Origin: Metellina segmentata
Taxonomy: Eukaryota; Arthropoda; Arachnida; Araneae; Tetragnathidae
DNA: 64,000 nt
Assembly (NCBI GenBank): GCA_947359465.1
Contig: OX375875.1
Coordinates: 11,873,038 to 11,937,037 of the forward strand
Direction of reading: 5' to 3'
The notes under the pieces were generated by a model. It was not told the origin of the DNA, ran no database searches, and worked only from the letters and a program-made list of their open reading frames with translations. A program made the position numbers and the translations under genes. Shown here in pieces: positions 5,401 through 62,828 of this stretch. Positions within the stretch are counted from its first letter, which is position 1. Each line of letters starts with the position of its first letter.

Positions 5401-5960
5401 ATTCACAATAAGAGAAAACTCACATTAATGCCGTTCGTGATTTATATTCGAGTGTTCATGAAAGAACTTCAGCAATATTTTCCTTATTTATAAAAAACGT
5501 GATATTTTGTTGGTGTTTAAAATATTTTGCCCTTGTATATATACCTACGTATATATAACGGCTGAAAAATATATACATCGTAGGATATGGCTCTAAATGT
5601 GTGTGCTTACGAGAAAAACGTCACGATTCTTTAACAACAGTAGATATCAAATAAGGAATTTTAAGGCATATAAAAGATTGATATCTGTAGTAATCGCAAC
5701 ACTGATTCAAAAGACAATAGTGATGAAATAGTGAACACTTCGAATTTAGAAACTGAATTTTTGTTAAAAAATTAATCACCTTTGATATTTTAATCAATTA
5801 ATTCAATAGCACTAAAATACTATCAAGCAACAAAAAAAATTGGGCACTTTGTTTATCATATTTAGTACATATAGAGTCTGAGGTAGAAGATATCACACCC
5901 GACCGTTTACTTTCGACGATGAGGTGCAACGTCGGCATCATTAAATCCAAGATAAACTTT
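5401..5960. other. No gene
   Basis: AT-rich sequence leading into the tandem repeat. A short TATATACC/TATATAAC tract lies near 5540. Confidence 0.5.
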
Positions 5961-6854
5961 AACAAGAAATACGAAATGTGCTTCCCACATTGCCATCAAC
6001 AGATACAATCAATAGATCCTTGAGCACAGTCCCGGGAGTGTTGACGAGTTGATGAAAATTCAACATATATTCTCTAAATAAATAAAATATGTGGATAAAC
6101 ATTTCATTTCCAAAAAATATTAGGATCCATGTTGTATTTTCACAGTTATCGTATTTAGTTTTTACTCACGTTCGAAGATGGAATGAAAGCTTTCAAAATA
6201 AGTGAATCTGGTTGGAGCAAGAACTGACCAACCGGTACCATTGCCGAACTTCTTAACAAGATATATGATATGTGCTTTCCATATTACCATCAACAGATAC
6301 ACTCAATAGACCCTTGAGTAGAGTCCCGGGGAGTGTTGACGAGTTGATAAAAACTATACATGTCGTCTCTAAATAAATAAAATGTATGGATAAACATTTT
6401 GTCCAAAAAAATATTAGAATCCATGTTGTATTTTCATAGTTAACGTATTTATTTTTTACTCACGTTCGAAGACGGAAAGAAAGCTTTCAAGATCAAGATA
6501 AGTGAATCTGGATAAAACAGTAACTGAATAACTCATACCATTGCCTAACTTTTTCACAAGATATATAAGACATGTGCTTCCCACATTACCATCAGCATAT
6601 ACACTCAATAGAATCTTGAGCAGTGTTCCGGGAAGTGTTGACGAGTTGATGAAAATTCTACGTGTCTCTTCTAAATTAATAAAATGTGTGGATAAACATT
6701 TTATCCCAAAAAATATTAGGATCCATGTTGTGTTCATGTTGTTCATAGTTAAACTATTTATTTTTTACTCAAGTTCGAAGACGTAAAGAAAGCTTTCAAG
6801 ATAAGTGAATCTGGAGGGAACAGAAATTAAACAACCGTAACCATTGCCAAACTT
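5961..6854. repeat. Three-copy tandem repeat, ~294-300 bp unit
   Basis: Units begin at 5961, 6255 and 6555 with AACAAGAWATA-type words followed by ATGTGCTTYCC. Each then carries GAGTGTTGACGAGTTGAT (the third unit reads AAGTGTTGACG), GTGGATAAACATTT and CTCACGTTCGAAGA. Copies have diverged by scattered substitutions and small indels. No reading frame is shared by all three, so it is non-coding. Confidence 0.85.
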
Positions 6855-13792: not shown

Positions 13793-14135
13793 CCAGTGGG
13801 ACGTATAGGAAGGTTCCTGGTTCGAATTCAGTTCAGTGCATGGATATTTGTAAGCAGTAAGGTGTAGAGGCGACTGGTGCACCTTGAATCTGTCGTGGCC
13901 AAAAGTTCTCACGTTGGGTTGGTGTGGAAGTTTGGAGTGCCAGCTCAGGTGTTGCCTCGTCATCTGACCCTGGTTCAAAATTACGTGGTGTCATCCTTGG
14001 ATCTTTCCCTTAGTTCCCCTAAGGGAAATTTCCCAGGACGACACCAGGTAATTTTGAACGACGGTCAGATGACGAGGCAACACCTTGATCCCGGACCGTC
14101 GTCAATAGCCCGTTGTGTTGCTCTAGTACGGCATT
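13793..14135 (+). repeat. SINE with an internal palindromic duplication
   Basis: Head type I (B box GGTTCGAATTC at 13820-13835), normal body to about 14014, then an inverted copy of the body back to 14084, then the normal tail (TTGATCCCGGACCGTCGTC onwards). The palindrome runs 13948-14084 with arms of ~67 bp: GGTGTTGCCTCGTCATCTGA on the left and its exact complement ending at 14084. Such a transcript would fold into a long near-perfect hairpin. Confidence 0.85.
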
Positions 14136-14499
14136 AATTAATAAAAAACTACCAAAAATTACCAGTGCGACGTAAATTCAATTACCTACCTAACACTTAA
14201 GTATTATTCGTGTGTTGTGGCACAAACGTAGCACTCAAGTACTTCGAAATATCGTGATCTTAGAGGGTAAAACCAATTGCACTGATTTTGTAATATCAAG
14301 TCCTGTACGTTATTGTTTTGAAATAGAGAGTCGTACACGAGAACTTACTGTACCTTATGGCCATAGGAAAATAAACGAAGGAAAAATCTCAATTTTCTCC
14401 TCAATTTTCAGCGAATGACAAGGATACGATATTTATGGACTAAATGTATTATTCTATGTGAAACATTGCTTTAGACTTATTCTTGAGTGTAGGATCTCA
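14136..14499. other. No gene
   Basis: AT-rich spacer after the SINE tail; no supported feature. Confidence 0.4.
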
Positions 14500-20213: not shown

Positions 20214-20384
20214 TTACCCACCCTGATTAATTTCCTTTCCTGTAAATGGACAAACGTAAGGAATTCGAAATCGCAAAAATGACGAACTTACCGTGAATAG
20301 TCTTGCACTCTCTTTTGTTATCAGCATTTTGATTTCCTGTGCTCTTTCACAAGGCATGTGACAAATCCTGATTTCACCATAAAA

Positions 20385-20978
20385 CACTACCGTACAATAA
20401 TGGACTGGATAGCAAGATGTGATGGTATAAGGGAAAGAATACATGCTTTAATAGGTGGGTGGGAGGGGTTTCCTCATGTGCTGCAATTAAACTAGCAACC
20501 CTTCTTGGCATACTTTCAACAAGGTTTTGATACACGGCTATGGGTATTTGTGTCCATCCCTGCTGCAAGAATGTCGCCAGCTCAGCTGTAGATTTCGGAC
20601 GTAGTTCCCTGCTTCATAAGCGTCGTTCTAACGCGTCACACAAATGTTCTGTGGGGTTTAGGTCGGGACTCTGAGCAGGCCAGAGGTAGACGTAGGAAGG
20701 GTAGACTTTTTACATCCATATCTTTATACCACTGCTTGACAGAGGCTACAACATGCCATGGAGCGTTGTAGACCTGCCAATAACATTCGTCCATTCCATA
20801 AAATTGCCAGAGTGTAGGAAGTACCTGGTTGTCCAAAATGTTCATGCATGCGACGGGGTGCAATTGACCTGGAAGAACATGCAAAGGTCCCAGGCCATTA
20901 CCACGAAAATCACCCCCAAACAAGTAGTCGAATTTTATGCAAATCCGCTGGCGTCCGGTCCATTATTGTAGGGTAGTG
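20385..20978 (-). mobile_element. Tc1 deletion derivative, copy A
   Basis: Ends CACTACCGTACAATAATGGA on the left and, read inward from the right, CACTACCCTACAATAATGGA. The right side is followed by TA. Only 594 bp. Just inside the right TIR the sequence joins directly to the transposase C-terminal half. Copy B (49586-50155) has the same internal junction, so these belong to one non-autonomous subfamily. Confidence 0.85.
20440..20940 (-). pseudogene. Tc1 transposase C-terminal half (copy A)
   Basis: The minus frame runs from GLGPLHVLPGQL through NILDNQVLPTLWQFYGMDE, the region of the second catalytic Asp, then VVASVKQWYKDMDVK. After a frameshift near 20700 it continues with the region before the third acidic residue and EPRPKSTAELATFLQQGWTQ, IAVYQNLVESMPRRVASLI. 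In the complete family the N-terminal paired-like DNA-binding domain and the first catalytic Asp would precede this; here the TIR takes their place. The Asp-rich FQDDN motif reads WQVYNAP in this copy, so the active site is also lost. Confidence 0.8.
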
Positions 20979-20988
20979 TATAAGTAGT

Positions 20989-21536: not shown

Positions 21537-22268
21537 GCTAAGAGCCTTCACACCAGCAGCGACAGCAATTTCTTTGCGCATGCGCATAACTTTCTTTTTC
21601 GAAAGCAAAACATTTATTTCTGATTCTGCAAGATGGCTGACAGATCGCGTCTCTACGCCTTTGATAAAACTACTTTTATTCTTGTTGGACGTGCTTAGCC
21701 GCCTTTATCTCCTGTAGAACAGTTTTGGTGGAGTGACTTAATTCTAAAATAGAATGCCCAGAATTTAAAAAATAGTAGAAATAAAATAAAATAAGTTGTT
21801 TGGAACTAAACAAGTTGAGCTTGCGTATGTGATTACTGGTCTGAGATAGCTTAGGTACACGAGTATTTTGTTTTCAATAGTCATTGGCGAATTCCGAGCA
21901 ATTAGGTGGAAAAGTTTACGTTTTACGTCTAGGAATTTATGGATAACGTTTTTTGTGTTCTGATTCCATGTGAGTCTTCTGTCTATGATAATACCTAGGT
22001 ATTTAGCTTCCTGAGCCAATGGGATTTCGATATTATTAATTTTTAGCTTGCAGGTTGAAAAACATCAACCGAAACAGGATTAGGCTTTATTCTGATTGGC
22101 TGTCAGCATGGCGACAGAGACAACAGTTGAACTTTCTCCAAGACTTGAAAGCTCAACGACAGCGACAGAGACAAACCGAGAGAAACAAAATTTGTTTGTA
22201 ATACGCATGTGCAAAGCGAAGAGACATATGTTTTTGTCGCTGTCGCCGTTGGTGTGAAGCCACCATTA
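21537..22268. mobile_element. TIR element with GACAGC-rich subterminal repeats, enclosing a LINE scrap
   Basis: The left end CCTTCACACCAGCAGCGACA is answered on the right by the complement of GTCGCCGTTGGTGTGAAG. GCGACAG words cluster inside both ends. Target duplication not certain (perhaps GCC or none), so superfamily not assigned. Between the ends lies a minus-strand Jockey-type RT fragment. Confidence 0.6.
21765..22055 (-). pseudogene. Non-LTR retrotransposon reverse transcriptase C-terminal fragment
   Basis: The frame reads IPLAQEAKYLGIIIDRRLTW, then ARNSPMTIENKILVYLSYLR followed by PVITYAS. The YLGIxxDxxLxW motif and the LRPxxTYA motif are the thumb-region signatures just after the RT domain of Jockey/R1-type LINEs. 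The catalytic YADD region and everything upstream are absent. It sits inside the TIR element, so it either inserted there or was captured. Confidence 0.75.
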
Positions 22269-22556
22269 GCCTCTAGATTGTAAGATTCGTGGTTCGAATA
22301 CGGGTCAGTGCATGGATGTTTGTAAGCGTGTGGTGTAGAGGTGTCTGGTGCACATTAAATCTGTCGTAGCCGAAAGTCCTCACGTTGGGTTGGTGTGGAG
22401 GTTTGTAGAGTGAGGTGCCAGCTCAGGTGTTGCCTTGTCATCTGACCGTGTTTCACAATTACGTGGTGTTGTAATCAGATCTTTCCCTTAGGGGATTGAT
22501 CCCGGACCGTCGTCAATAGCCCGTAGTGTTGCTCTAATTCGACGTTAGTTAAAAAT
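22266..22556 (+). repeat. SINE, head type I
   Basis: B box GGTTCGAATACGGG near 22292, body with CTCACGTTGGGTTGGTGTGG, tail CCCGGACCGTCGTCAATAGC. The first part of the head is shortened. It begins exactly at the right end of the TIR element. Confidence 0.8.
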
Positions 22557-22758
22557 GAAGATTACTCTAGGTATCTAGAGTAGGATCGGGAGAGTGCATC
22601 GATCACTTAGATGAGGTAGGACTGTACTTTATAGAAGATAATTTGAATGGACAGGGCTCCCTACAGGAGTTTTCACTTTTTCTGCTAAAGCCAAAATCGA
22701 CCGCATTTTAACAAATAATTAATTACTTTTAAATTATGTAGGTAGAGTAGATAGTCTA

Positions 22759-23056
22759 ATGAAAGTCGCACTTGAACAATACAAAGTACTATTGGAGATG
22801 GTCTAGGATTAATTCTAAACCGAAAGTTCCAAAGAACACCACCACGTAATTTTGAACCACCGTTACGTGACATGGCAACACCTGAGCTGGCACCCCACTC
22901 TACAAACTTTCACACCAAGCCAACGAGAGGGTATTTGATACCACGACAGTTTTAACATTTACCAGCTCCCCTCGTACACGACGTATTTTGATTCGAACTC
23001 GCAACCCTCCAGTCACTTATACGTTACTCTTCCAACCGAGTTACCTTGGCCCCAAT
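22759..23056 (-). repeat. SINE, head type II
   Basis: Complete enough to show head type II on the minus strand: A box in GGTAACTCGGTTGG and B box GAGTTCGAATC, then the shared body. Its 5' edge forms the first unit of the 134-bp array. Confidence 0.8.
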
Positions 23057-23535
23057 ACAAAAGATAGAGGACCTTGACTAACCGTTACAAGCAAAAGTAT
23101 TGTGAGCACTTAAAGTCGGTTAAATATGTCAATCGCAACCCTCCAGTCACTTATACGTTACTCTTCCAACCGAGTTACCTTGGCCCCAATACAAAAGATA
23201 GAGGAACTTGACTAACCGTTACAAGCAAAAGTATTGTGAGCACTTAAAGTCGGTTAAATATGTCAATCGCAACCCTCCAGTCACTTATACGTTACTCTTC
23301 CAACCAAGTTACCTTGGCCCCAATAGAAAAGATAGAGGAACTTGTCTAACCGTTACAAGCAAAAGTATTGTGAGCACTTAAAGTCGGTTAAATATATCAA
23401 TCGCAACCCTCCAGTCACTTATACGTTACTCTTCCAACCGAGTTACCTTGGTCCCAATACAAAAGATAGAGGAACTTGACTAACCGTTACAAGCAAAAGT
23501 ATTGTTAGCACTTAAAGTTGGTTAAATATGTCAAT
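23000..23535. repeat. 134-bp tandem array seeded at a SINE edge
   Basis: CGCAACCCTCCAGTCACTTA starts at 23000, 23134, 23268 and 23402, an exact 134-bp step, four units with very few differences. Each unit holds the 5' half of SINE head type II (with the A box but not the B box) plus ~80 bp of flanking DNA (GAGGAACTTGACTAACCGTT, then AGTCGGTTAAATAT). The array therefore formed after the SINE inserted. Confidence 0.9.
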
Positions 23536-49506: not shown

Positions 49507-49585
49507 CTTTAAGATTAGTTTCTGATAACACACATGGCAAACCTGAAAAGCTCAGTCATTTTATCACGGTTTGCATTCAAACGTA

Positions 49586-50155
49586 CACTACACTATAATA
49601 ATGAACCGGACAGCAAGATGTGATGATATAAAGGGAAGAATACTTGCTTTAATAGGGAGATGGTCCCCTATGGGCTGCAATTACACTAGCAACCCTTCTG
49701 GGCATACTTTCAACATGGTTTTGATACACAGCTATGGATATTTGTGTCCATTCCTGCAGCAAGAATATCGCCAGCTCAGCTGAAGATATCGGACGTGGTT
49801 CGCTGGTCCGTAAACGTTCCTCTAACTCGTCCCACAAATGTTGTATTGGATTTAGATCGGGACTCTAAGCAGGCCAGGGAAGACGTTTTACATCCATATC
49901 TCGATACCACTGATTGACAGAGGCTGCAACATGACATCGACTGTTGTCGTCCTGGAAGTAACATTCGTCCATTCCATAAAATTGCCAGAGCGTAGGAGGA
50001 ACCTGATGGCCTAAAATGTTCATGTAGGAGTCGGCCTTCAATTGACCATGAATAACGTGCAGAGGTCCCAGTCCATACCACGAAAAACACCCCCAAACAA
50101 GTAGTCGGATTTTATGCAATTCCGCTGTTGTCCGGTCCATTATTCTAAGGTAGTG
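49586..50155 (-). mobile_element. Tc1 deletion derivative, copy B
   Basis: TIR CACTACACTATAATAATGAA on the left. The right end read inward is CACTACCTTAGAATAATGGA. TA flanks both sides. At 570 bp it has the same internal junction as copy A, with the TIR-proximal MDRTTAELHKIRLL joined to VWGCFSWYGLGPLHV. Confidence 0.85.
49660..50140 (-). pseudogene. Tc1 transposase C-terminal half (copy B)
   Basis: An open frame from MDRTTAELHK through VWGCFSWYGLGPLHVIHGQL, LPTLWQFYGMDE-type sequence and CYFQDDNSRCHVAASVNQWY (second catalytic Asp intact, at FQDD) to DMDVKRLPWPA. A stop follows at 49865. The next part is in another frame: WDELEERLRTSEPRPISSAE and VYQNHVESMPRRVASVIAAH. The third acidic residue lies in the broken part. 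The N-terminal domain is deleted exactly as in copy A. The short 5' coding block continuing from the TIR suggests the deletion derivative once had a short intact frame. Confidence 0.8.
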
Positions 50156-50383
50156 TATACTTGAATTCTAACCCATTCACCTGCTAATGGCGATTCAAGG
50201 TTTTTTTTTATTTTATCTCTAAGCCATCTTCCAGTTAACTCAGTTATTCTGCGATAATTTTTACTTTCATGACTTCTCAATGCTACCTATAAACAAACTG
50301 CTAAACAATTTCAACCAAAGTAGCAAGCTTTCAACAAGGTATTAGCAATACCATAGCGTACGCTAAGAAAGTAGAATTTACGA

Positions 50384-52675: not shown

Positions 52676-52995
52676 GCCAACAACCGGTCTGGTGGTTAAG
52701 GTGTTAACCTCTAGATAAAAAGGTTCCTGGTTCGAATCTCCGGGTCAGTGCATGGATTTTGTAAGCGTAAGAGGTAGAGGAGATTGGTGCACCTTAAATC
52801 TGTCGTGGCCAAATATCCTCACGTTGGTTTGGTGTGGAAGTTTGGAGAGTGGAGTGCCGGCTCAGGTGTTGCCTCGTCATCTGACCGTGGTTCAAAATTG
52901 CGTGGTGTTCTCCACGGACCTCTCCCTTAAGGGATTGATACCGGACCGTCGTCAATAGCTCGCTGTGTTGCTCTAGTACGTCATTAATTAAAAAT
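52676..52995 (+). repeat. tRNA-derived SINE, reference full-length copy (head type I)
   Basis: Head GCCAACAACCGGTCTGGTGG, with A box TGGTGGTTAAGG and B box GGTTCGAATCTCC spaced as in tRNA genes. Then the unique body (CTCACGTTGGTTTGGTGTGG; GTTGCCTCGTCATCTGACC) and the tail CTCCCTTAAGGGATTGATAC, ending CTCTAGTACGTCATTAATTA. Best copy for defining the family here. Confidence 0.9.
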
Positions 52996-53167
52996 TAATA
53001 ACATTTAAGCATTGTTTCTTCATATAATGAAAATGGCAAAATTTAAACAGATTCACGATCAAACGTGGAATCATTTGACTTCAACCAATATTCATGGAAG
53101 ATGTACCAGTTACCCAGTTTCAAGCAAACAAAAATTAAATACATTTAAGTAAGGTAGATATTCTAAT

Positions 53168-53440
53168 TAACGTCGCACTGGAGCTAAACAATGGGCTATT
53201 TACAACTTTCAGATACAAATCCCAAAGGGAAAAATTGCAAGAACAAGCCTACGTAATTTTGAAGCACGGTCAGATGACGAAGCACAACCTTAGTTGGTAA
53301 CCCACCTTCCTCAACTTCCACACCATGCCAAAGTGAGGACATTTGAGGCCTCGACAGATTTACAGTGAACCAGGCCCCTTTGTCGACGACTGTCTTTTGA
53401 TGGATTCCAACTCGCATCCCTCCGGTTGCTAATAACGAAT
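53168..53440 (-). repeat. SINE, head type II
   Basis: The tail GTCGCACTGGAGC at the left, then body, and head remnant TTCCAACTCGCATCCCTCCG at the right. It abuts the start of Tc1 copy C, so it may have truncated that element. Confidence 0.75.
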
Positions 53441-53528
53441 GTTCCTTCCAGGATGCAACGCTCCATTTCATGTTGCAGCCTCTGTCAAGCAGTGGTATCA
53501 AGATATCGATGTAAAACGTCTTCCCTGC
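53429..53528 (+). mobile_element. Tc1 derivative copy C, left piece (split by BEL)
   Basis: Encodes GAATGTTCCTTCCAGGATG (the ECxFQD motif with the second Asp, one base deleted after it) and, in the next frame, HVAASVKQWYQDIDVKRLP. It stops at the BEL LTR. The continuation is at 62488-62769. Confidence 0.8.
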
Positions 53529-53751
53529 TGTTGTAGCTCAGGATAGCACACACAATGAAAATACTCGCGGACTGTATAACAACACAATTTCTTAAGATAC
53601 TCAGCAAATGACCATTGCTCATCTATTAATGCGGCTACATTCCCCGCATGACACGTCACTCCACAAGGGATCTTACTCGAACACTGACTAAATTCACACT
53701 TTTTCCAAAAGGTGGCGCTGCTGCAACAGCGCTTGCGGTTGTTACGGAACA
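53529..53751 (-). repeat. BEL 3' LTR
   Basis: 223 bp, TGTTGTAGCTCAGG at its left edge and GTTACGGAACA at its right on the plus strand. By eye it differs from the other LTR at five positions (about 2%), which implies a fairly recent insertion since LTRs are identical on arrival. Confidence 0.95.
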
Positions 53752-53882
53752 TTCCGCCCCACGTTGCAATGGTTACATTCAACCATTTAATTATACAATC
53801 ATCTCAAAATGTAAATAAATATGAAATAAGTACAAGTATGAAAAACACTGAACTACACATAAGAAAAAATACTAGTATAAGA

Positions 53883-54877
53883 TTACACATTAACAGGTAA
53901 AATACAGATTTTTGCAATGGGCCTTTTGAAGACTCCAGACTTAGTTTTTATCTTAACAACTCTGACCCGTTTGTCATCACCGAAATAGAGCTCAATTATT
54001 CTACCTAATGCCCATTTTTGAGGTGGTAGATTTTCCTCCTTGAGAAGCACTAGCTCATTCAAATTCACATTATCTTTCTCAATCATCCACTTGGACCTCT
54101 GTTGCAAATTATTTAGATACTGTACTTGCCATTTCCTCCAAAAAATTTGAATTATTTTGGCTAATTTTTTCTAGTTGGACAATCTATTGTCTTTAACTTC
54201 TATTAAATTTGGCTCTACAACAGTATTTAAGGATCTGCCGATTAGGAAATGAGCAGCGGTTAACACATCATACACATCAGTATCTGACGACAGAGGTACA
54301 AGCAGTCTAGAATTTAGGATGCCTTCTATTTGGGTAATGACTGTTAGGAATTCTTCATACGTCAGTCTGGAATTTGCTACAACTCTTTTAAAATGATACT
54401 TAAAGGCCTTTACACCACTTACCTATAGGCCACCAAAATTAGGAGCTCTAGGTGGGAGAAAGTTCCAGTCGATACCCTCAGTTGACATATAATTAGCAAG
54501 GCTTTCGTCTGGTTTTACAACTAATTTATGTAACCTGGAAAGCTCCTTATTAGCACCTGTGAAATTTTTAGCGTTATCCGAAAATAATTTTAAACACAGA
54601 CCTCTGCGAGCCACAAATCTTTTTAAGCAAGCCAAAAACGCCTCTGAAGTCAAATCGGTTACAATCTCGAGATGGATGGCCTTCGTAACTAAGCACACAA
54701 AGAAACACACATATACTTTATGAAAAACACCCTTTCTTTGATGTTTATATTTAATAAGGAATGGCCCGCAGAAATCTACTCCTGAGCAATTAAATGGGAA
54801 ATCAGGAGTCACTCTCTCTTTGGGTAAATCACCCATTAATTGTTCAACTCCTATGGGTTTAACTCTAAAACACTTAA
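53883..54877 (-). pseudogene. pol: BEL/Pao integrase core and C-terminal domain, disabled
   Basis: Resumes immediately after the nested transposon with the fourth zinc ligand (the Cys in KCFRVKPIG). Core: first Asp in NCSGVDFCGPF, second Asp in LKLFSDNAKNF. At the third site the usual GGLWE reads GGL, stop, Val, so the catalytic Glu and its preceding Trp are both lost. Beyond the stop the frame continues with GVKAFKYHFKRV, a second stop near 54172, and the DUF5641 C-terminal domain (SKWMIEKDNVNLNELVLLKE, WALGRIIELYFGDD) ending at 53883. No integrase activity is possible. Confidence 0.9.
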
Positions 54878-57800
54878 GGGGACATACGACTGTTAAACCT
54901 CGAAAATGTTCGATTTTTTGAAAAAAATATATGTTATTCAACAGTGTTTTCTGAACAATTTAAAATATTCCGCGTTAAAAAATTCCTATAATTATGAAAG
55001 TTATGAGCGAAAATGCATCAGCTGTTTAATGTAAACATTGGAAAGTGCCACGCCCTTTTCTTTGACTGACTGAATGCTAATAGCTAGACACACGATTTAT
55101 ACATCAGAAATATATTATTTTTCTTGATGATTGAGAAGAAAAAGTACTACTCAACTCCTCTCTAAAGTTTGTGTACAATTTTCAAACGATTGCTACGCAC
55201 GTTTATTTTCAAAGCTCTCTTGAAATATCGCTAAATTTTAGCAGCGTGAATTCGTTTTTGGATTTTTGTTGTTTTACTGTTTAGCTTTTGGATTCTTTTG
55301 ATATGAATTCCATTCAAGTTAAAAGAAAGTCTGGTCAACGTCCTAAAAAGAGACGTTTTTATGGAAATCAGCATTCCAAAAAACCGATCGGATTTGATAT
55401 CAACGCTCTTGTTTTATCTGATGGTTTTGACTCGGACAGCGAGAATTTCGACGAATCTTCTGTGAATGCCAGTGTATCAGAAAAACCAGAACCTTTCCCC
55501 AAAAGTGCTTCCGGGAAAAAAATTGATTTGGAATCGTCTTTTACCAGAACATTTGAAGGAAACATTATCTGTGATAAAGATGTGTTGTTTTCATTCCTGG
55601 AAAATAATTTATGTTGCAAAGTGTGTTTTGGTGCTATAAGCATTCTTGATGAAAAAGTGAGTGGACTTTCTTCATCAATTTCTATTACTTGTAGTTCATG
55701 TAAAATTAAAGTATCAAGTAGAAACTCAAAGTTGCTTGGCCCGAAAAAAAACATTCCTGAAATCAACCGAAGGATGACATATGCCATGCGTAGTGTTGGC
55801 CAAGGGTTGGAAGGTCTGAAAACGTTTTGCGGGATTATGGACTTCTATCCCCCTGTTTCGCAAAATGCATACGACAAAATTTGTGCACGTATTGATGCTG
55901 CCTCAAAAATAGTGGTAATCGACAGCATGAAGAAAGCCGCTGAAGAAGAGGTTGCTGCTACAAACAGCACAGACAACCGTGAGTGGTGATGGAACCTGGA
56001 AGACGAGGGGCCACACTTCTCAAATCGGTGTTTGCACCGTTATAGGTGCTGACACAGGGAAAGTTATTGATGTAAAGGTTGCAGCATATGGAAAGGGCCT
56101 CGTTTTGGCAGTGCCTTCAAAAAGTGGCATGCCAAACATTCCCAAGTGTGTCGAAAAAACCATACTGGCTCATCTGGTAAAATGGAAGCAGATGGGATGG
56201 TGAAACTCTTTCAAAGATCTGAAAGTGAAAGAGGTGTGCGATACTTAAATTACATTGGGGATGGGGACTCTAAAACTTTTGTTTCCATATCAGACTGCCA
56301 TCCGTATGGTGAAAATTTCAAAGTGTCGAAATTAGAATGTGTTGGACACGTTCAGAAGCGGATGGGCTCTCGTCTTCGGAAATTAAAAAAAGAGTATGGT
56401 GCTAAAAAGCTGCAAGATAAAAAATCTATTTCGGGGAAAGGACGGCTGACAGATAACGTCATCAACCAGCTATCTGTGTACTATGGGAATGCAATTCGTC
56501 AGCACTCCAGCTCGGTAAAGGAAATGAGGAATGCCATATGGGCAATATATTTCCATACACGTTCAACTGACGACGAACCTCTGCATAGCTTCTGCCCAGC
56601 TGGTGAAATGTCATGGTGCAAATACAATCGAGCAGTAGCAGAGGGAACAGTCGACGATTTTCACCATAAATCTAGTTTTCCACCAGCTGTTATGGACGTG
56701 ATATAGCCAATTTTCAATGCTTTATCACATCCTCAGTTACTAAACCGCTGCCATGGTGCTTTTACACAAAATGCCAATGAGTCAATGAACTCTCTGATTT
56801 GGCAAATTTGCCCAAAGATATCAGGCAGCGGTCGCAGAATTGCTGAAATCGCGGTACATGAATCGGTTGTACTGTTTAATGAAGGCCGCATGGGTAGATT
56901 ACAAACTATGCTTAAACTTCGACTTTCTATAAGCGAAAATGCCATCAATGCACAAAAGTTAGCTGACATGCGAAGAATTTTACATGCAGACAGGAGAGCG
57001 AAGGAAAACACGATTTTAAAAAGAAGAAACAAGAGAAGAGCAAAATCGCTCTCTGAACTGACATTTTCTAAAAAGGAAGGCTCAACTTATGAACCAGGTG
57101 GATTTTAGCTATTTGGTAAGTTAATCACATAAATTTTTTAAGCCAAAAATTCACTTTAGTAATTGAAAACTTTTAAAAAATGTCTTTTTCGAGAGTAATT
57201 ATTTTCTTGCACCGTAAATATATATTCCATTTTCCTTCAATTACTAAAAATTTTCTGATTGTATTTGTGAGAAATTTTAATAACAAGTGTAGAGCATAGC
57301 ATTATACTTAAATTTCACCCCTTTTTAAAGTGCTGAAATATAAAAAATTTATGTTATAGTAAAAAATAACTTTAAAGTCATTTATCTCAAAATGAGTTTT
57401 TTTGATGATACGCGCACAATATCTAAAGAACTATTGAATATTTTTACTTGAAATTTTCACAGAATATGTATTATGCTATGTTCTGCTAATTGAACCACAA
57501 TTTAGCTTCATTTTCTCTTTTAAAAAGTTTTGTGGGGGAGTAGTAAAGTTGAAATTTTAGCTATTTTTAACCCTTTATTTTAATATGGTACATAAAATAG
57601 AAATTAGATTTAAATGTGAAAAAATTGTGCTTCAATTCCTTCAACTGACTGTTACGAATACCTAGATACCCAAAATATTGTGTTTAGACCAATATTTTGT
57701 CAGTAATCATACGCGTAAGGTGGTTAAATAATATTTTCTTCAAAAATTATACCTGCATTTATTACTCTCTCAAACAAATACATACCAATATTATGGGTTG

Positions 57801-57945
57801 TAAAAGTTTGTACTAAAACAAAAAGAACAGATATTTTTCTTGAAAAAAAAAGTTAAGCTCTCATATGTATTGTTTGGGAGATATGAGCTGTCGAATTTGA
57901 CTGATTTTTCCCCACTTTATCGAGTTTTAAGAGTCGTATGTCCCC
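54878..57945 (+). mobile_element. Kolobok-like transposon with TTAA duplication, nested in BEL integrase
   Basis: 3068 bp. TIRs: left GGGGACATACGACTGTTAAA; right, read inward, GGGGACATACGACTCTTAAA. TTAA flanks both sides (54874-54877 and 57946-57949). TTAA duplication with G-rich ends fits Kolobok (piggyBac is the alternative, but the transposase is not piggyBac-like). It carries one plus-strand transposase gene, broken. 5' UTR ~410 bp, 3' UTR ~840 bp, both AT-rich. Confidence 0.9.
55288..57108 (+). pseudogene. Mutator/Kolobok-like transposase, three breaks
   Basis: Start ATG 55288. An N-terminal basic region (KRKSGQRPKKRRF) is followed by two Cys pairs (CCKVC, CSSC), probably zinc-binding, at residues ~110-145. 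Next is AMRSVGQGLEGLKTFCGIMD. A frameshift near 55975 leads into TTVSGDGTWKTRGHTSQIGV (first catalytic Asp in SGDGTW). A second frameshift near 56080 leads into CSIWKGPRFG, W...H...C, NHTGSSGKMEADG, YIGDGDSKTF (second Asp) and KLECVGHVQKRMGSRLRKLK. An in-frame TAG at 56704-56706 comes before TQNANESMNSLIW (candidate Glu), and the basic tail ends at 57108. The family is tagged 'Mutator-like transposase domain' in many spider proteins. Confidence 0.9.
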
Positions 57946-57949
57946 TTAA

Positions 57950-58670
57950 TACAATCGTGCACGACTTTTCTGCACGATGATTTACCCTGTACTGGCCAAA
58001 ATTTTTGCCTAACATAATGCAGCAAAGCGGTAGGGCCTAAATGAAAATACCGCTTATGATATGATTCTAAAACGAGCTTAGTTAGTTTATGACTCTTTGG
58101 CAGGATAATAGGGAATCTACTTTCGAAATTTACATTAGCATGCTTTATTCTGCCGTTCACTCTGATTATTCCCTCTTTGCCTAAAAAGGGGTTTAAACAT
58201 CTCATCTTACTTTTGTCAGGAACACTTTTTTGACGACTTAAACATCTGAGTTCCTCTGGGAACTCTCGACTCTGAACCTCTTTCACAGTGAAAATTTCGC
58301 TCCTTTTGATCTCCTCTGTGCTCAAAGGTCCCAATTTCTTTTCAGTTCGGTTCCTCAGGTTGTATATAAATCTGAAAAGATAGTTTACAACATGCAATAA
58401 TTTGGTGTAACTGTTACTAATACTAAATAACTCTTGGCGAAAGGAATTAGAAGTTACAGTAAGCACAGGTGAGTCACTTTGTTCTGAATGTTTAAGTTCA
58501 AACGTGAACTCGTCTCGTATGACTGATGTAGGAATTTCACGACTGGGATACTCCCGGTCAGTTAGGAAAGAAGGACCCCCAAACCACAGTTTGCTCGTAG
58601 TCAGCTTCTCAGGGTCCATCCCTCTGGAAATAAGGTCCGCGGATTGTTCTCGGAAGACACATGACGCCAC
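57950..58670 (-). pseudogene. pol: BEL/Pao pol continuation: end of RNase H linker to integrase zinc finger
   Basis: Picks up after the frameshift with ADLISRGMDPEKL and continues through the linker (FLGKEGIIRVNGRIKHAN) to the integrase H2C2 finger. Both His are visible (HKRYFHLGPTALLHYV, positions ~58020-58060) and the first Cys lies in VVHDC. The frame is cut by the nested transposon at the TTAA at 57946-57949, one residue before the last Cys of the finger. Confidence 0.9.
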
Positions 58671-61294
58671 TGTTTAACTGTTGTTAAGTCTTGTATATTG
58701 GCTATACGGTTTGCCACGAACGTTTTTAGCAGGTAGGGCTCTTTCCGTATCCATGAAAGTACAATCATGGAATCACTCCATAAATAGATGTCACTTATCT
58801 TAAGATGTAAGGCACTCTTCACTTTGGTTATCAACTTTGCTAAAAGAACAGCTGCACATAGTTCTAATCTCGGTATTGTAGCCCGCTTAAGAGGCGACAC
58901 ACGTGACTTGCTACAAACCAAGTTTACTTCGAAAGCTCCATTTTCTGTTGTTGACTTGCAATAAATGACGCATCCATATGCAGACTCGGACGTGTATGCA
59001 AATCCGTGAAGCTCAATATGCACTGATTTTTCTATCAATATGCACCTCTTAACACTCACGTTGTTTATTGCTGGCAAGGATTCGACGAAGTCTTGCCACT
59101 GTAGCTCTTCCGCTTCAGGAAGTGGATCGCTCCAGTCTAAATTCAAGCACCACAGTTTTTGTAAAAATATCTTTGCTCCTGCCACCACCGGACCTAAGAG
59201 TCCAAGGGGGTCAAAAGTTCGCGCAATAGTGGAAAGCACTGATCTCTTCGTTGGCGGAACTACGTTTTCCAGCTGAATTTGGAAAGTAAAGTGGTCAATC
59301 GTAGGTTTCCACAAAACACCTAACGCCTTTGTCTCTTCTTGAAAATTGTAGCTACTGTCAGGCCCAGTTTGTAATTCAGGATTATTACTACACCACTTGT
59401 GTAGCATCATGCCTCCGCTCTTGAGAGCCTTTATTAACTCCGACTGAAGCTCCTTTGCTTCGCTCAGAGTGTCGGCACCACTCAGCACATCATCCATGTA
59501 GAAGTCTCTCTCCAAAACTGGTGAAGCTAACGGATAATTCTCTTGTTGATCTCTAGATAATTGAAGTAACACCCTGGTTGCGAGATGAGGTGCGCTTACT
59601 GTGCCGTACGTCACTGTTTTGAGCTCATATGTTTTAACTGGTTCATTCACTCCCTCCTTCCAAAGAATTCTTAGAAGCTTCGTTTGGCTGGGGTCAATTA
59701 AAATCATTCTATACATTTGTCTAATGTCAGCCACAAAAGCATTAATATGCTTACGGAACCTCACCATTATTTCAAAAAGGTCTTCCTGATTAACCCCACC
59801 GTTATATTGTAAGGAGTTGAGTGAATTACCTACGGTTGTTCGTGAAGAAGCATTAAAAACTACACGAAGTTTTGTCGTACTTTTATCAGGGCGATAGACT
59901 CCTAAATGCGGTATATAGTAAGTTCCCACTTCTTCCTCACACTCCGAAATTTCTTCCATGTGTCCCAATTCCTCATATTCGCGCAGAAATTCCTTATATA
60001 ATGCTAAATACTCTGGCTCTCTTAAAAAACGACTCCACAGCGAATTTAATTTCTTAAGGGCAATATCTCTGGATTTTCCTAAACATTTTGGATCCTCTTT
60101 TAGTGGCATTTTTACTATATATCTCCCCGTACTATCTCTCTTAACGTTTTTCTCAAAATGCTCTTCACAAATCATTACTTCTTTATTTTGGGGTACCTCT
60201 ATCTCCACATTTTCCATTTCCCAAAATTTCTCCAAAGCTTCGTTTAAACCAATATTATCCTGAATGAACCCACAGTGTACGTTTCCCTCAGTTGTAATAG
60301 GTATACTTCCACTAACTACATATCCAAAATCTGTATTTTGAAGAATCAAATTACTATTAGCAGGATAAATCTGACCTGGCCGTAACAGCTCATAAAAGAT
60401 TTCAGCGCTCAAAAGCAAATTTACTCGACCAGGCACATTAAAGTTTTCATCCGCTAGTTTTACATATTTTAATTCTGGCACATTAACCTTAAGCATTTTT
60501 GACGGCATGAAATCCGTAATTCTGGATACAACCAAAAAATCTAGTTTTTTCTCAAAGTTACCCTCAAGGTTTGAGATTGTTGCATTAACCACAGATTTAA
60601 TTCTTGTGATTGTATCACCTATCCCGCAAACTGTCATATCAGTTTTCTCTCTTTTTAAACCGAGACTATTCGCACAGTCTGTCGTCATGTAATTATTCAT
60701 GGCCCCTTGACATAAAATAGCTCGTGACTCGTATAATTTTCCTCGATCGTCCCTCAACATACAATTCACAGTACTCAGCAAAACGGTTTTCGACTGGTTT
60801 ATCACTCGTGTTGAGAGGACGGAATTGTTGTTTTGACTGCTCTCAAACGTCTGCGCAAAAGGAGAAAGGGATGATTCACTAACAGCTGTACAACCCCTTC
60901 CCCCACTTGGATTCGAACGCAGGTCACGGTCACCCGCGTTGGGTTCACTCGAAGTACGCACATACTCATGGTTTCTAGGGTAATGCAATGAATAGTGATG
61001 CCGTCTCTTCTGCCCCTCTCGATTACACAGATAACAAGAAAAATGGGATTTACAATTATTGACCAGATGCTTGCCCAGACAATTAAAACAGCAATTATTT
61101 TTCTTAATGACCTCCACTCTTTCAGAAACAGGCAAAACCATATAATTATTACATTTAAACAAAGGATGATTTTCGGGACACAGAATGCATTTTGAACTTT
61201 TACAATCAGAAATAAATATTTTAGGCATATTTCTCGAATAGGATGTTTTAACGCTTTGATTATTGTCCATCGCTAGCGGTTTTCCCCGGGACAC
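58601..61294 (-). CDS. pol: BEL/Pao pol N-terminal part: zinc knuckles, protease, RT, RNase H
   Basis: 897 codons. Zinc-binding Cys/His clusters at residues ~36-100 (CCFNCLGKHLVNNC; CYLC). DUF1758 protease region at ~190, where the expected Asp-Ser/Thr-Gly reads LCQGA, so the protease active site is probably lost. RT has its first Asp in FVADIRQMYRM (~520) and the catalytic pair in FYMDDVLSG (~597). The Peptidase_A17/Pao region carries FDPLGLLGP. RNase H is at ~730-880, with ELCAAVLLAKL and LWSDSMIVLSW. The frame leaves the polyprotein at NNP because of a one-base deletion near 58635; the true continuation is the frame at 57950-58670. Confidence 0.9.
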   Translation of the reverse strand: MSRGKPLAMDNNQSVKTSYSRNMPKIFISDCKSSKCILCPENHPLFKCNNYMVLPVSERVEVIKKNNCCFNCLGKHLVNNCKSHFSCYLCNREGQKRRHHYSLHYPRNHEYVRTSSEPNAGDRDLRSNPSGGRGCTAVSESSLSPFAQTFESSQNNNSVLSTRVINQSKTVLLSTVNCMLRDDRGKLYESRAILCQGAMNNYMTTDCANSLGLKREKTDMTVCGIGDTITRIKSVVNATISNLEGNFEKKLDFLVVSRITDFMPSKMLKVNVPELKYVKLADENFNVPGRVNLLLSAEIFYELLRPGQIYPANSNLILQNTDFGYVVSGSIPITTEGNVHCGFIQDNIGLNEALEKFWEMENVEIEVPQNKEVMICEEHFEKNVKRDSTGRYIVKMPLKEDPKCLGKSRDIALKKLNSLWSRFLREPEYLALYKEFLREYEELGHMEEISECEEEVGTYYIPHLGVYRPDKSTTKLRVVFNASSRTTVGNSLNSLQYNGGVNQEDLFEIMVRFRKHINAFVADIRQMYRMILIDPSQTKLLRILWKEGVNEPVKTYELKTVTYGTVSAPHLATRVLLQLSRDQQENYPLASPVLERDFYMDDVLSGADTLSEAKELQSELIKALKSGGMMLHKWCSNNPELQTGPDSSYNFQEETKALGVLWKPTIDHFTFQIQLENVVPPTKRSVLSTIARTFDPLGLLGPVVAGAKIFLQKLWCLNLDWSDPLPEAEELQWQDFVESLPAINNVSVKRCILIEKSVHIELHGFAYTSESAYGCVIYCKSTTENGAFEVNLVCSKSRVSPLKRATIPRLELCAAVLLAKLITKVKSALHLKISDIYLWSDSMIVLSWIRKEPYLLKTFVANRIANIQDLTTVKQWRHVSSENNPRTLFPEGWTLRS

Positions 61295-62142
61295 AAAAAC
61301 AGGTCAATTTCTGTTGATAATTTTATCGGATCAAACCAGGTATCTGATTGCCTAACACTGATATGGGACGCGGTTTCTCTGTCTAATGTATGAAACAATT
61401 TGTCTGATACTATTAACTCATTTAATTTTTTAAAGTCCGACACTTTCCTCAATTTTAAATAGTACTCCCAACTCGTAATCAAACGAGAAGCAAATTGCGT
61501 ATAAGTCTCATTAGGTTGGCGAGTTGTTTTTCGAAATTGTTCTAGACACGATTGAGGAGTAGGCTCAAATTCACGCAACACAATAGATTTGACTTTTGCA
61601 TAATCAGTCAGCTCATCATCCCCAATGTAAGTGATAACATTGGAAGCTCTCTCCCCAAGTAAATTTAACAAAATTTCTGATTTATATTTCTCAGGAACAG
61701 CTTTCGAAACAAATGCTCTTTCTAAGGAAGCAAAAAAGTAACTCCAGCCTTCTGGCCTACTCGGAACTTTTATTGTCAACGTCCGAACACTCTTCATCAA
61801 AGAATCTAGAGATTCACAATTTTCCACTTCATTCTCAGATTTGCTGTTTAGTTTTGTTTCGGCTCGGATTTTTGCAAGTTCAAGTTCTGCCTTAGCTCTT
61901 TCTAGCCTAAGCTTTTCGAGTTCCATTTGCTTCTGTTCCGACTCAATTTGTTTCTGTTCATTATTTTTGCGATCTTCGACGGTTGAATTTATCAATTCCG
62001 TGACCATTTGAATATCTGATGTATAGTATTTATTACTTTTGATGAGCTCAATTAGCTGAATAACGGTCATTTTCTTATTTACCTCTTCACCTAACTCAGC
62101 GGCAATCTGCCTAAGATCTTCCTTTCTACTGTTATTAAACAT
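61273..62142 (-). CDS. gag: BEL/Pao gag-like protein
   Basis: A 289-residue open frame starting MFNNSRKEDLRQIAAELGEE (a SAP-like helix-hinge-helix start common in spider BEL gag). A long charged coiled coil follows (residues ~60-95, EQKQMELEKLRLERAKAELE). Then comes a DUF1759-type capsid region with FFASLERAFV, KSEILLNLLGERA, VLREFEPTPQSCLEQFRKTT and WEYYLKLRKV. It would form the particle that packages element RNA. The frame ends 22 bases inside the next frame, which suggests either a programmed shift or a small indel between gag and pol. No internal stops. Confidence 0.85.
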   Translation of the reverse strand: MFNNSRKEDLRQIAAELGEEVNKKMTVIQLIELIKSNKYYTSDIQMVTELINSTVEDRKNNEQKQIESEQKQMELEKLRLERAKAELELAKIRAETKLNSKSENEVENCESLDSLMKSVRTLTIKVPSRPEGWSYFFASLERAFVSKAVPEKYKSEILLNLLGERASNVITYIGDDELTDYAKVKSIVLREFEPTPQSCLEQFRKTTRQPNETYTQFASRLITSWEYYLKLRKVSDFKKLNELIVSDKLFHTLDRETASHISVRQSDTWFDPIKLSTEIDLFLCPGENR

Positions 62143-62264
62143 TTTTCTTAGTTTTGATACTCAATACAAATAGCCTTCTCATACAAGTTCAAATTTTTCA
62201 CTTACTTCACAGACACAAGCTCGCACTTTTTTATTCAGTTCTCTCCGGCGTGGTAAGGACCAGA
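62143..62264 (-). other. BEL untranslated leader
   Basis: Between the 5' LTR and the gag start. Contains the presumptive primer-binding site next to the LTR and short AT-rich sequence. Confidence 0.6.
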
Positions 62265-62487
62265 TGTTGTAGCTCAGGATAGCACACACAGTGAAAATAC
62301 TCGTGGACTGTATAACAACACAATTTATTAAGATACTCAGCAAATGACCATTGCTCATCTATTAATGCGGCTACATTCCCCGCATGACACGTCACTCCAC
62401 AAGGCATCTTACTCGAACACTGACTAAATTCACACTTTTTCCAAAAAGTGGCGCTGCTGCAACAGCGCTTGCGGTTGTTACGGAACA
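62265..62487 (-). repeat. BEL 5' LTR
   Basis: 223 bp partner of 53529-53751. In element orientation it is followed by TCTGGTCCTTACCACGCC, the expected place of the tRNA primer-binding site beginning TGG; which tRNA is not clear. Confidence 0.95.
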
Positions 62488-62769
62488 CCTTCCCTACTCA
62501 GAGTCCCGACCTAAACCTCATAGATTTGTGGGACGAGTTAGAGCGACTCCTACGGACCAGGGAACCACGTCCGAAATCTACAGCTGAGCTGGCGGCATTC
62601 TTGCAGCAGGAATGGACACAAATACCCATAGCTGTGTATCAAAACCTTGTTGAAAGTATGCCCAGAAGTGTTGCTAGTGTAACTTGGTGGACCATTCCCC
62701 TTTTAAAGCAAGTATTATTTCCCTAATACCATCACATCTTGCTGCCAGGTCTATTATTGTAGGGTTGTG
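62488..62769 (+). mobile_element. Tc1 derivative copy C, right piece
   Basis: Continues the frame interrupted at 53528: ESRPKPHRFV in one frame and SPDLNLIDLWDELERLLRTR in another. The third catalytic position reads D where Tc1 has E in SPDLNPIEHLW. Then AELAAFLQQEWTQIPIAVYQ and NLVESMPRSVASV. It ends with the TIR complement CTATTATTGTAGGGTTGTG and TA. Same subfamily as copies A and B. Confidence 0.85.
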
Positions 62770-62828
62770 TATCTCTCGTACGCATGGAGTACATCACAGA
62801 AAATCAGCGTACTTCCAAATTATAACTA

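Follow-up and report, generated by a model that had tools for sequence, protein, structure and literature searches.

Integration of BEL/Pao retrotransposons duplicates 4-6 bp of the target. Kolobok DNA transposons are described by Kojima and Bao as having a TTAA target, RR/YY ends and a DDE region (PMC9587614), and a THAP domain is given as usual for their transposases, which makes it a common and not a defining feature (PMC6004289). For KolobokP, the account of excision footprints infers that the element may take flanking bases along when it leaves, and calls the pathway unknown (PMC9587614). In the piggyBac work, the excised transposon was described with a TTAA overhang, and altered flanks left integration into TTAA unchanged (PMC7351741). 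Nested transposons are common, as stated for plant long terminal repeat (LTR) elements (PMC6911290). Here a window of 64,000 nucleotides from the spider Metellina segmentata (C3:11873038-11937037; genome of 1.67 Gb in 173 contigs) was analyzed, in which a Kolobok element lies inside a BEL/Pao element, which in turn lies inside an older Tc1/mariner derivative. It is almost certain that these elements were inserted in sequence to form a three-level nest with the following features.

53435..53528, plus strand: Tc1/mariner remnant, left piece (89% to 49968-49875, 85% to 20790-20698)
53524..53528, no strand: BEL target-site duplication, left copy CCTGC (alignment to the Tc1 copy at 49 kb, frame)
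53529..53751, minus strand: BEL/Pao 3' LTR (LTR comparison)
53886..54170, minus strand: C-terminal piece of BEL pol (DUF5641, E 7e-33)
54423..54873, minus strand: BEL integrase core piece, interrupted by Kolobok (rve, E 7.3e-7, 29.8 bits, cut-off 32.6)
54874..54877, no strand: TTAA, left flank of Kolobok (sequence)
54878..57945, plus strand: Kolobok-superfamily DNA transposon of 3,068 bp with inverted ends (ends, transposase match, related loci)
55303..57108, plus strand: Kolobok transposase frame, broken (frames, alignment of copies)
57946..57949, no strand: TTAA, right flank of Kolobok (sequence)
57950..58673, minus strand: BEL pol piece with Integrase_H2C2, interrupted by Kolobok (E 3.7e-6)
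58601..61303, minus strand: BEL pol with reverse transcriptase and Pao peptidase, frame change near 58.6 kb (Peptidase_A17, E 9.7e-52; RVT_1, 23.6 bits, cut-off 29.6)
61273..62160, minus strand: first BEL frame, gag-like by position alone (no Pfam match above cut-off)
62265..62487, minus strand: BEL/Pao 5' LTR (LTR comparison)
62488..62492, no strand: BEL target-site duplication, right copy CCTTC (alignment to the Tc1 copy at 49 kb, frame)
62493..62772, plus strand: Tc1/mariner remnant, right piece, reaching the 3' inverted end (alignment to other copies, domain matches)

The outermost element could be compared with two other copies in the window, which match the nested pieces over 49584-49968 (minus strand) and 20384-20790. 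In their longer extent (20384-20982 and 49585-50159) these copies are about 600 bp long and have inverted ends. By eye, TA adjoins both ends of the 49-kb copy and only the left end of the 20-kb copy; the nested copy is without its left end. DDE_3 was matched by the 49-kb copy with an E value of 9.9e-7, just above the cut-off, and by the nested pieces with 6.8e-4, below it. Because the derivative also matches the Sleeping Beauty transposase (5cr4, E 2.5e-11), it is assigned to Tc1/mariner, with which it further shares an SPDLNP-type block and inverted ends. It differs in being a derivative of about 600 bp with only the C-terminal part of the transposase, and the nested copy is in addition truncated on the left.

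The uninterrupted 49-kb copy (49.6-50.2 kb) represents the empty Tc1 site that the original prediction proposed to look for. No gap interrupts its alignment over 53528|62493, and therefore the 5 bp at the two borders of BEL, CCTGC and CCTTC, are a target-site duplication. The 20-kb copy has 16 additional bases near the same join. When duplication lengths of 4, 5, 6, 9 and 10 bp were tried, only 5 bp restored the frame LPCPTQSPDLN on both sides. A duplication of 9-10 bp, considered as both flanks share CTTCCCT, was thus ruled out by the frame and by the gapless 49-kb copy. The near-matching 5-bp duplication that had been predicted is therefore borne out, and the Tc1 frame is indeed cut at 53528 as proposed, but it resumes at 62493 and not at 62488 once the duplication is removed. 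Elsewhere in the family, the LTRs L004 and L005, for which no internal region was found at either expected place, are bordered by perfect 5-bp duplications (AATAC and AATAT), and at L006 the duplication matches at 4 of 5 bases.

The element filling the gap is coded on the minus strand and contains RVT_1, Peptidase_A17, Integrase_H2C2, rve and DUF5641, of which RVT_1 and rve fall under the Pfam cut-off in the broken frames. As anticipated, its paired LTRs are both 223 bp long (TG...CA) and differ at five positions. When six other LTR loci were used for comparison, every mismatch proved to be a change in only one of the two LTRs (two private to the left, three to the right), and one base is common to both LTRs of the window and seen in none of the six. 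The genome searches were read as best-scored matches; for the LTR, the best 40 of 169 candidates, including the two of the window, had 95-100% identity. The spacing of the window LTRs, 8,736, minus 3,072 for the insert gives 5,664, which is the spacing of two LTR pairs on C10; other listed pairs have different spacings (5,614-6,607). TG...CA LTRs, Pao peptidase, reverse transcriptase, integrase, DUF5641 and the 5-bp duplication are all as in BEL/Pao, and nothing notable sets the element apart, the window copy having further frame breaks besides the insert. Elsewhere, four LTRs of this family lie on one strand at C4:118272582-118289861 (L014-L016) with spacings of 5687, 5685 and 5685, which suggests three internal regions arranged in tandem with shared LTRs.

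Inside BEL, a TTAA-flanked Kolobok-like transposon had been predicted, and it could be confirmed by TTAA on both sides, a PF20700 match and inverted ends. The insert begins with GGGGACATACGACT and ends with the inverted copy of the same, and it separates the H2C2 piece of the BEL integrase from the rve piece. Its termini GGGGAC...GTCCCC are of the RR...YY type. The PF20700 match of the window transposase is in two pieces. The window frame is broken by a 2-bp deletion near 55974 and a stop at 56704-56706, neither of which occurs in any of the 15 copies aligned with the window copy. Near 56068, a 22-bp deletion is common only to the window copy (L055) and L056; it adjoins a GATGTA repeat, and other shared sites put the two copies in different sub-lineages, so that either recurrent deletion or gene conversion may have produced it.

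The 609-aa protein of sibling copies matches PF20700 ('Mutator-like transposase') only, and no THAP domain was found in it by Pfam. In 12 aligned proteins (L057 and 11 of 120 listed relatives), D230, D328/D330, C354-H357 and E501 are invariant, as are H436-C439-C447-H463 and C265-C268-H287-C291. Because these residues together with TTAA and the GG/CC ends are the features given for Kolobok (PMC9587614), the element is placed in this superfamily. It shares with it the TTAA flanks, 5'-GG...CC-3' ends, a D-D-E triad whose C/DxxH motif, here CxxH, lies between the second D and the E, zinc-finger residues in the stretch from CxxH to E, and CCHC after the first D as in some lineages, but no THAP domain was found here. 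Unlike KolobokP, no long direct terminal repeats were seen. The insert resembles piggyBac in TTAA target and flanks, but its ends are GG...CC; assignment to piggyBac was ruled out, as PF20700 was the sole match and no piggyBac family was found. Among the 120 listed relatives of the transposase, the closest with a name comes from Araneus ventricosus, an orb-weaving spider, and is 74% identical along its entire length; others come from further spiders, a cockroach, thrips and a wasp.

The second empty site is provided by BEL copies without Kolobok, of which at least 37 could be read in the genome, again in agreement with what the original prediction proposed to look for. They were found with the BEL site region (40 of 56 candidates scored) and comprise 17 places, with L007 and L010 counted as one, and 20 more; three form one tandem array on C4. 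Both empty sites bear out the predicted order of arrival, first Tc1, then BEL and finally Kolobok. We infer that the BEL and Kolobok insertions took the ordinary course, through integrase and transposase respectively. The first element present would have been a non-autonomous derivative of Tc1/mariner with a full length of about 600 bp; a BEL/Pao retrotransposon would then have entered it, duplicating 5 bp of Tc1. Within BEL, one C-to-T change would have turned TCAA into TTAA, and Kolobok would later have entered the integrase region, with TTAA at either end of the insert.

The relative ages of the two insertions are consistent with this order. The LTR divergence is 2.28% (Kimura two-parameter), corresponding to 1.1% per lineage (95% Poisson interval 0.36-2.6%). 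Against 15 compared copies, the window Kolobok has 10 private substitutions in 3,068 bp, or 0.33% (0.16-0.60%); for this count the very divergent L073 was aligned but excluded, and partial and interrupted copies were left out of the alignment. As expected, private substitutions were proportionally fewer in Kolobok (10/3,068 bp) than in the LTRs (5/446 bp), with a one-sided p of 0.033. The idea that the LTR differences bound the age of Kolobok from above is sound in its logic, and the values of 0.33% and 1.1% per lineage agree with it. In about 600 bases of BEL flank, six private changes were counted against 15 copies when two target bases were excluded, which agrees with 1%. At a rate of 2.9e-9 per site per generation, an insect value that may not be that of the host, the LTRs and Kolobok correspond to about 3.9 and 1.1 million generations, respectively.

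The bases at the Kolobok target were unexpected from the original prediction, since the TTAA flanks are unlike the target in the other BEL copies read. At the corresponding site these have ACAA (33 of 37), TCAA (three, L115-L117, the most divergent copies) or ACGAA with an extra base (one, L054). All 39 other scored matches to the site region, including two beyond the 37, start at query base 3, just after TT. One explanation is that Kolobok entered a site that was not TTAA (TCAA or ACAA) and brought TTAA on its ends, like piggyBac, via hairpin opening, with repair keeping the donor TTAA on both sides. This would fit the TTAA overhang of excised piggyBac (PMC7351741) and the flanking bases that may leave with KolobokP under a pathway that the source calls unknown (PMC9587614). 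It would also fit the rarity of new sites: of the TTAA sites in the window BEL, about 3% would be expected to have arisen through one private substitution and about 0.04% through two. On the other side, at most informative sites near the target the window copy agrees with the divergent copies, and its T is shared with the TCAA copies, so that TTAA could have arisen before insertion by one C-to-T change. The demand for two private substitutions at the target was accordingly set back, as the divergent TCAA copies reduce the need to one. In a tree of the site region with the target columns removed, the window copy was placed with a support of only 35. For L058, a sibling insertion located in a different repeat, four of five printed empty copies show a single TTAA and one shows CTAA, piggyBac with changed flanks still integrates into TTAA (PMC7351741), and the chemistry proposed for Kolobok is by analogy with piggyBac only. 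Entry into a site without TTAA is therefore possible and rather unlikely; that Kolobok wrote its own TTAA on both sides of TCAA or ACAA, as a footprint of TTAA carriage through piggyBac-like chemistry in a different transposase family, is slightly more doubtful still. We lean towards a TTAA that was present before insertion and keep the alternative. If TTAA was carried in, the nest and its order would be unchanged and the target step alone would differ.

Several observations weigh against sequential insertion as described above: not one of the other 37 BEL copies read has TTAA at the empty Kolobok site, the two copies of the BEL duplication differ at one of five bases, the age difference is weakly significant, and the nest is known from the assembled sequence of one individual. 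Since Tc1, BEL and Kolobok are all repeat families, misassembly might have joined unrelated pieces of the three, but the junctions are base-exact, the duplication, the frame and the length arithmetic agree with each other, and the two LTRs share the base absent from the six other loci. Kolobok might also have been captured into BEL before BEL inserted, for example by template switching, so that both arrived jointly, and a target that is not TTAA in the relatives read would suit this. However, Kolobok is absent from all 37 other BEL copies that were read, the TTAA and the complete inverted ends at both borders are in keeping with transposition, and the private substitutions of Kolobok are proportionally fewer than those of the LTRs. 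Joint arrival is regarded as very improbable, and misassembly as a shade more improbable than that. Sequential insertion is thus retained.

A further repeat not foreseen by the original prediction adjoins the Tc1 remnant.

52681..53433, no strand: repeat of a foldback-like family with internal inverted arms, its end abutting the Tc1 remnant (self-comparison, other copies)

This repeat is self-inverted over 52785-53372 at 68%, and further copies were observed in the window (22266-23021, 570-884 and 13810-14144) and many in the genome. The predicted start of the nest at 53429 did not hold, as Tc1 homology begins at 53435, next to this repeat. Because it begins where the inverted-arm repeat ends (53433), the stack has a fourth member, which cuts the Tc1 remnant itself at 53434/53435. 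When the genome was searched with 53300-53528 (40 of 4,324 candidates scored), the 39 other matches stopped at query position 129-136 or started at 135-138, except one spanning 14-151 of 229, and none of these 39 covered both sides of the 53434/53435 junction. The missing 5' part of Tc1 was not found elsewhere in the window at an E cut-off of 1e-8. Apart from these elements, the window contains a 134-bp unit in four tandem repeats at 22999-23535 (97% identity).

The Kolobok family itself was followed through the genome with the coding part (best 40 of 151 candidates), and there were 41 exact matches to the 20-base end, shorter relatives having been sought only among these. TTAA was found on both sides in 15 of 20 loci with tabulated ends, the window included; L066-L068, which are among the 15, share identical flanks and may represent one insertion. 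TTAA is missing on the right of L070 and on the left of L071, L073 and L075. At L062 an 8-base duplication, TCGCTTAA, and not one of 4 bases, lies on both sides. The copies L066-L068 contain a 638-bp insert at nt 2911 of Kolobok, and among the loci listed, nine (L076-L084) have only nt 1169-2911 of Kolobok followed by 348 bp of this insert; L076 is flanked by a 245-bp inverted repeat of 100% identity. Perhaps these loci reflect a chimeric element that carries a piece of Kolobok. The 609-aa frame is kept in nine of the 20 copies (L057-L065), and the family looks recently active.

The nest is of an ordinary kind and unusually well documented. Its general interest is modest, because nested transposons are common. 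As an empty site is available within this genome for each of the two insertions, three families are placed in time order at one locus, and two clocks, the LTRs and the private changes of Kolobok, can be compared. Two leads may attract specialists: the mismatch at the target site, and the Kolobok family, which seems recent and in which nine 609-aa frames among 20 copies make a bench test possible. TTAA flanks set against sister sites that are not TTAA offer a testable lead on how Kolobok picks and remakes its target.

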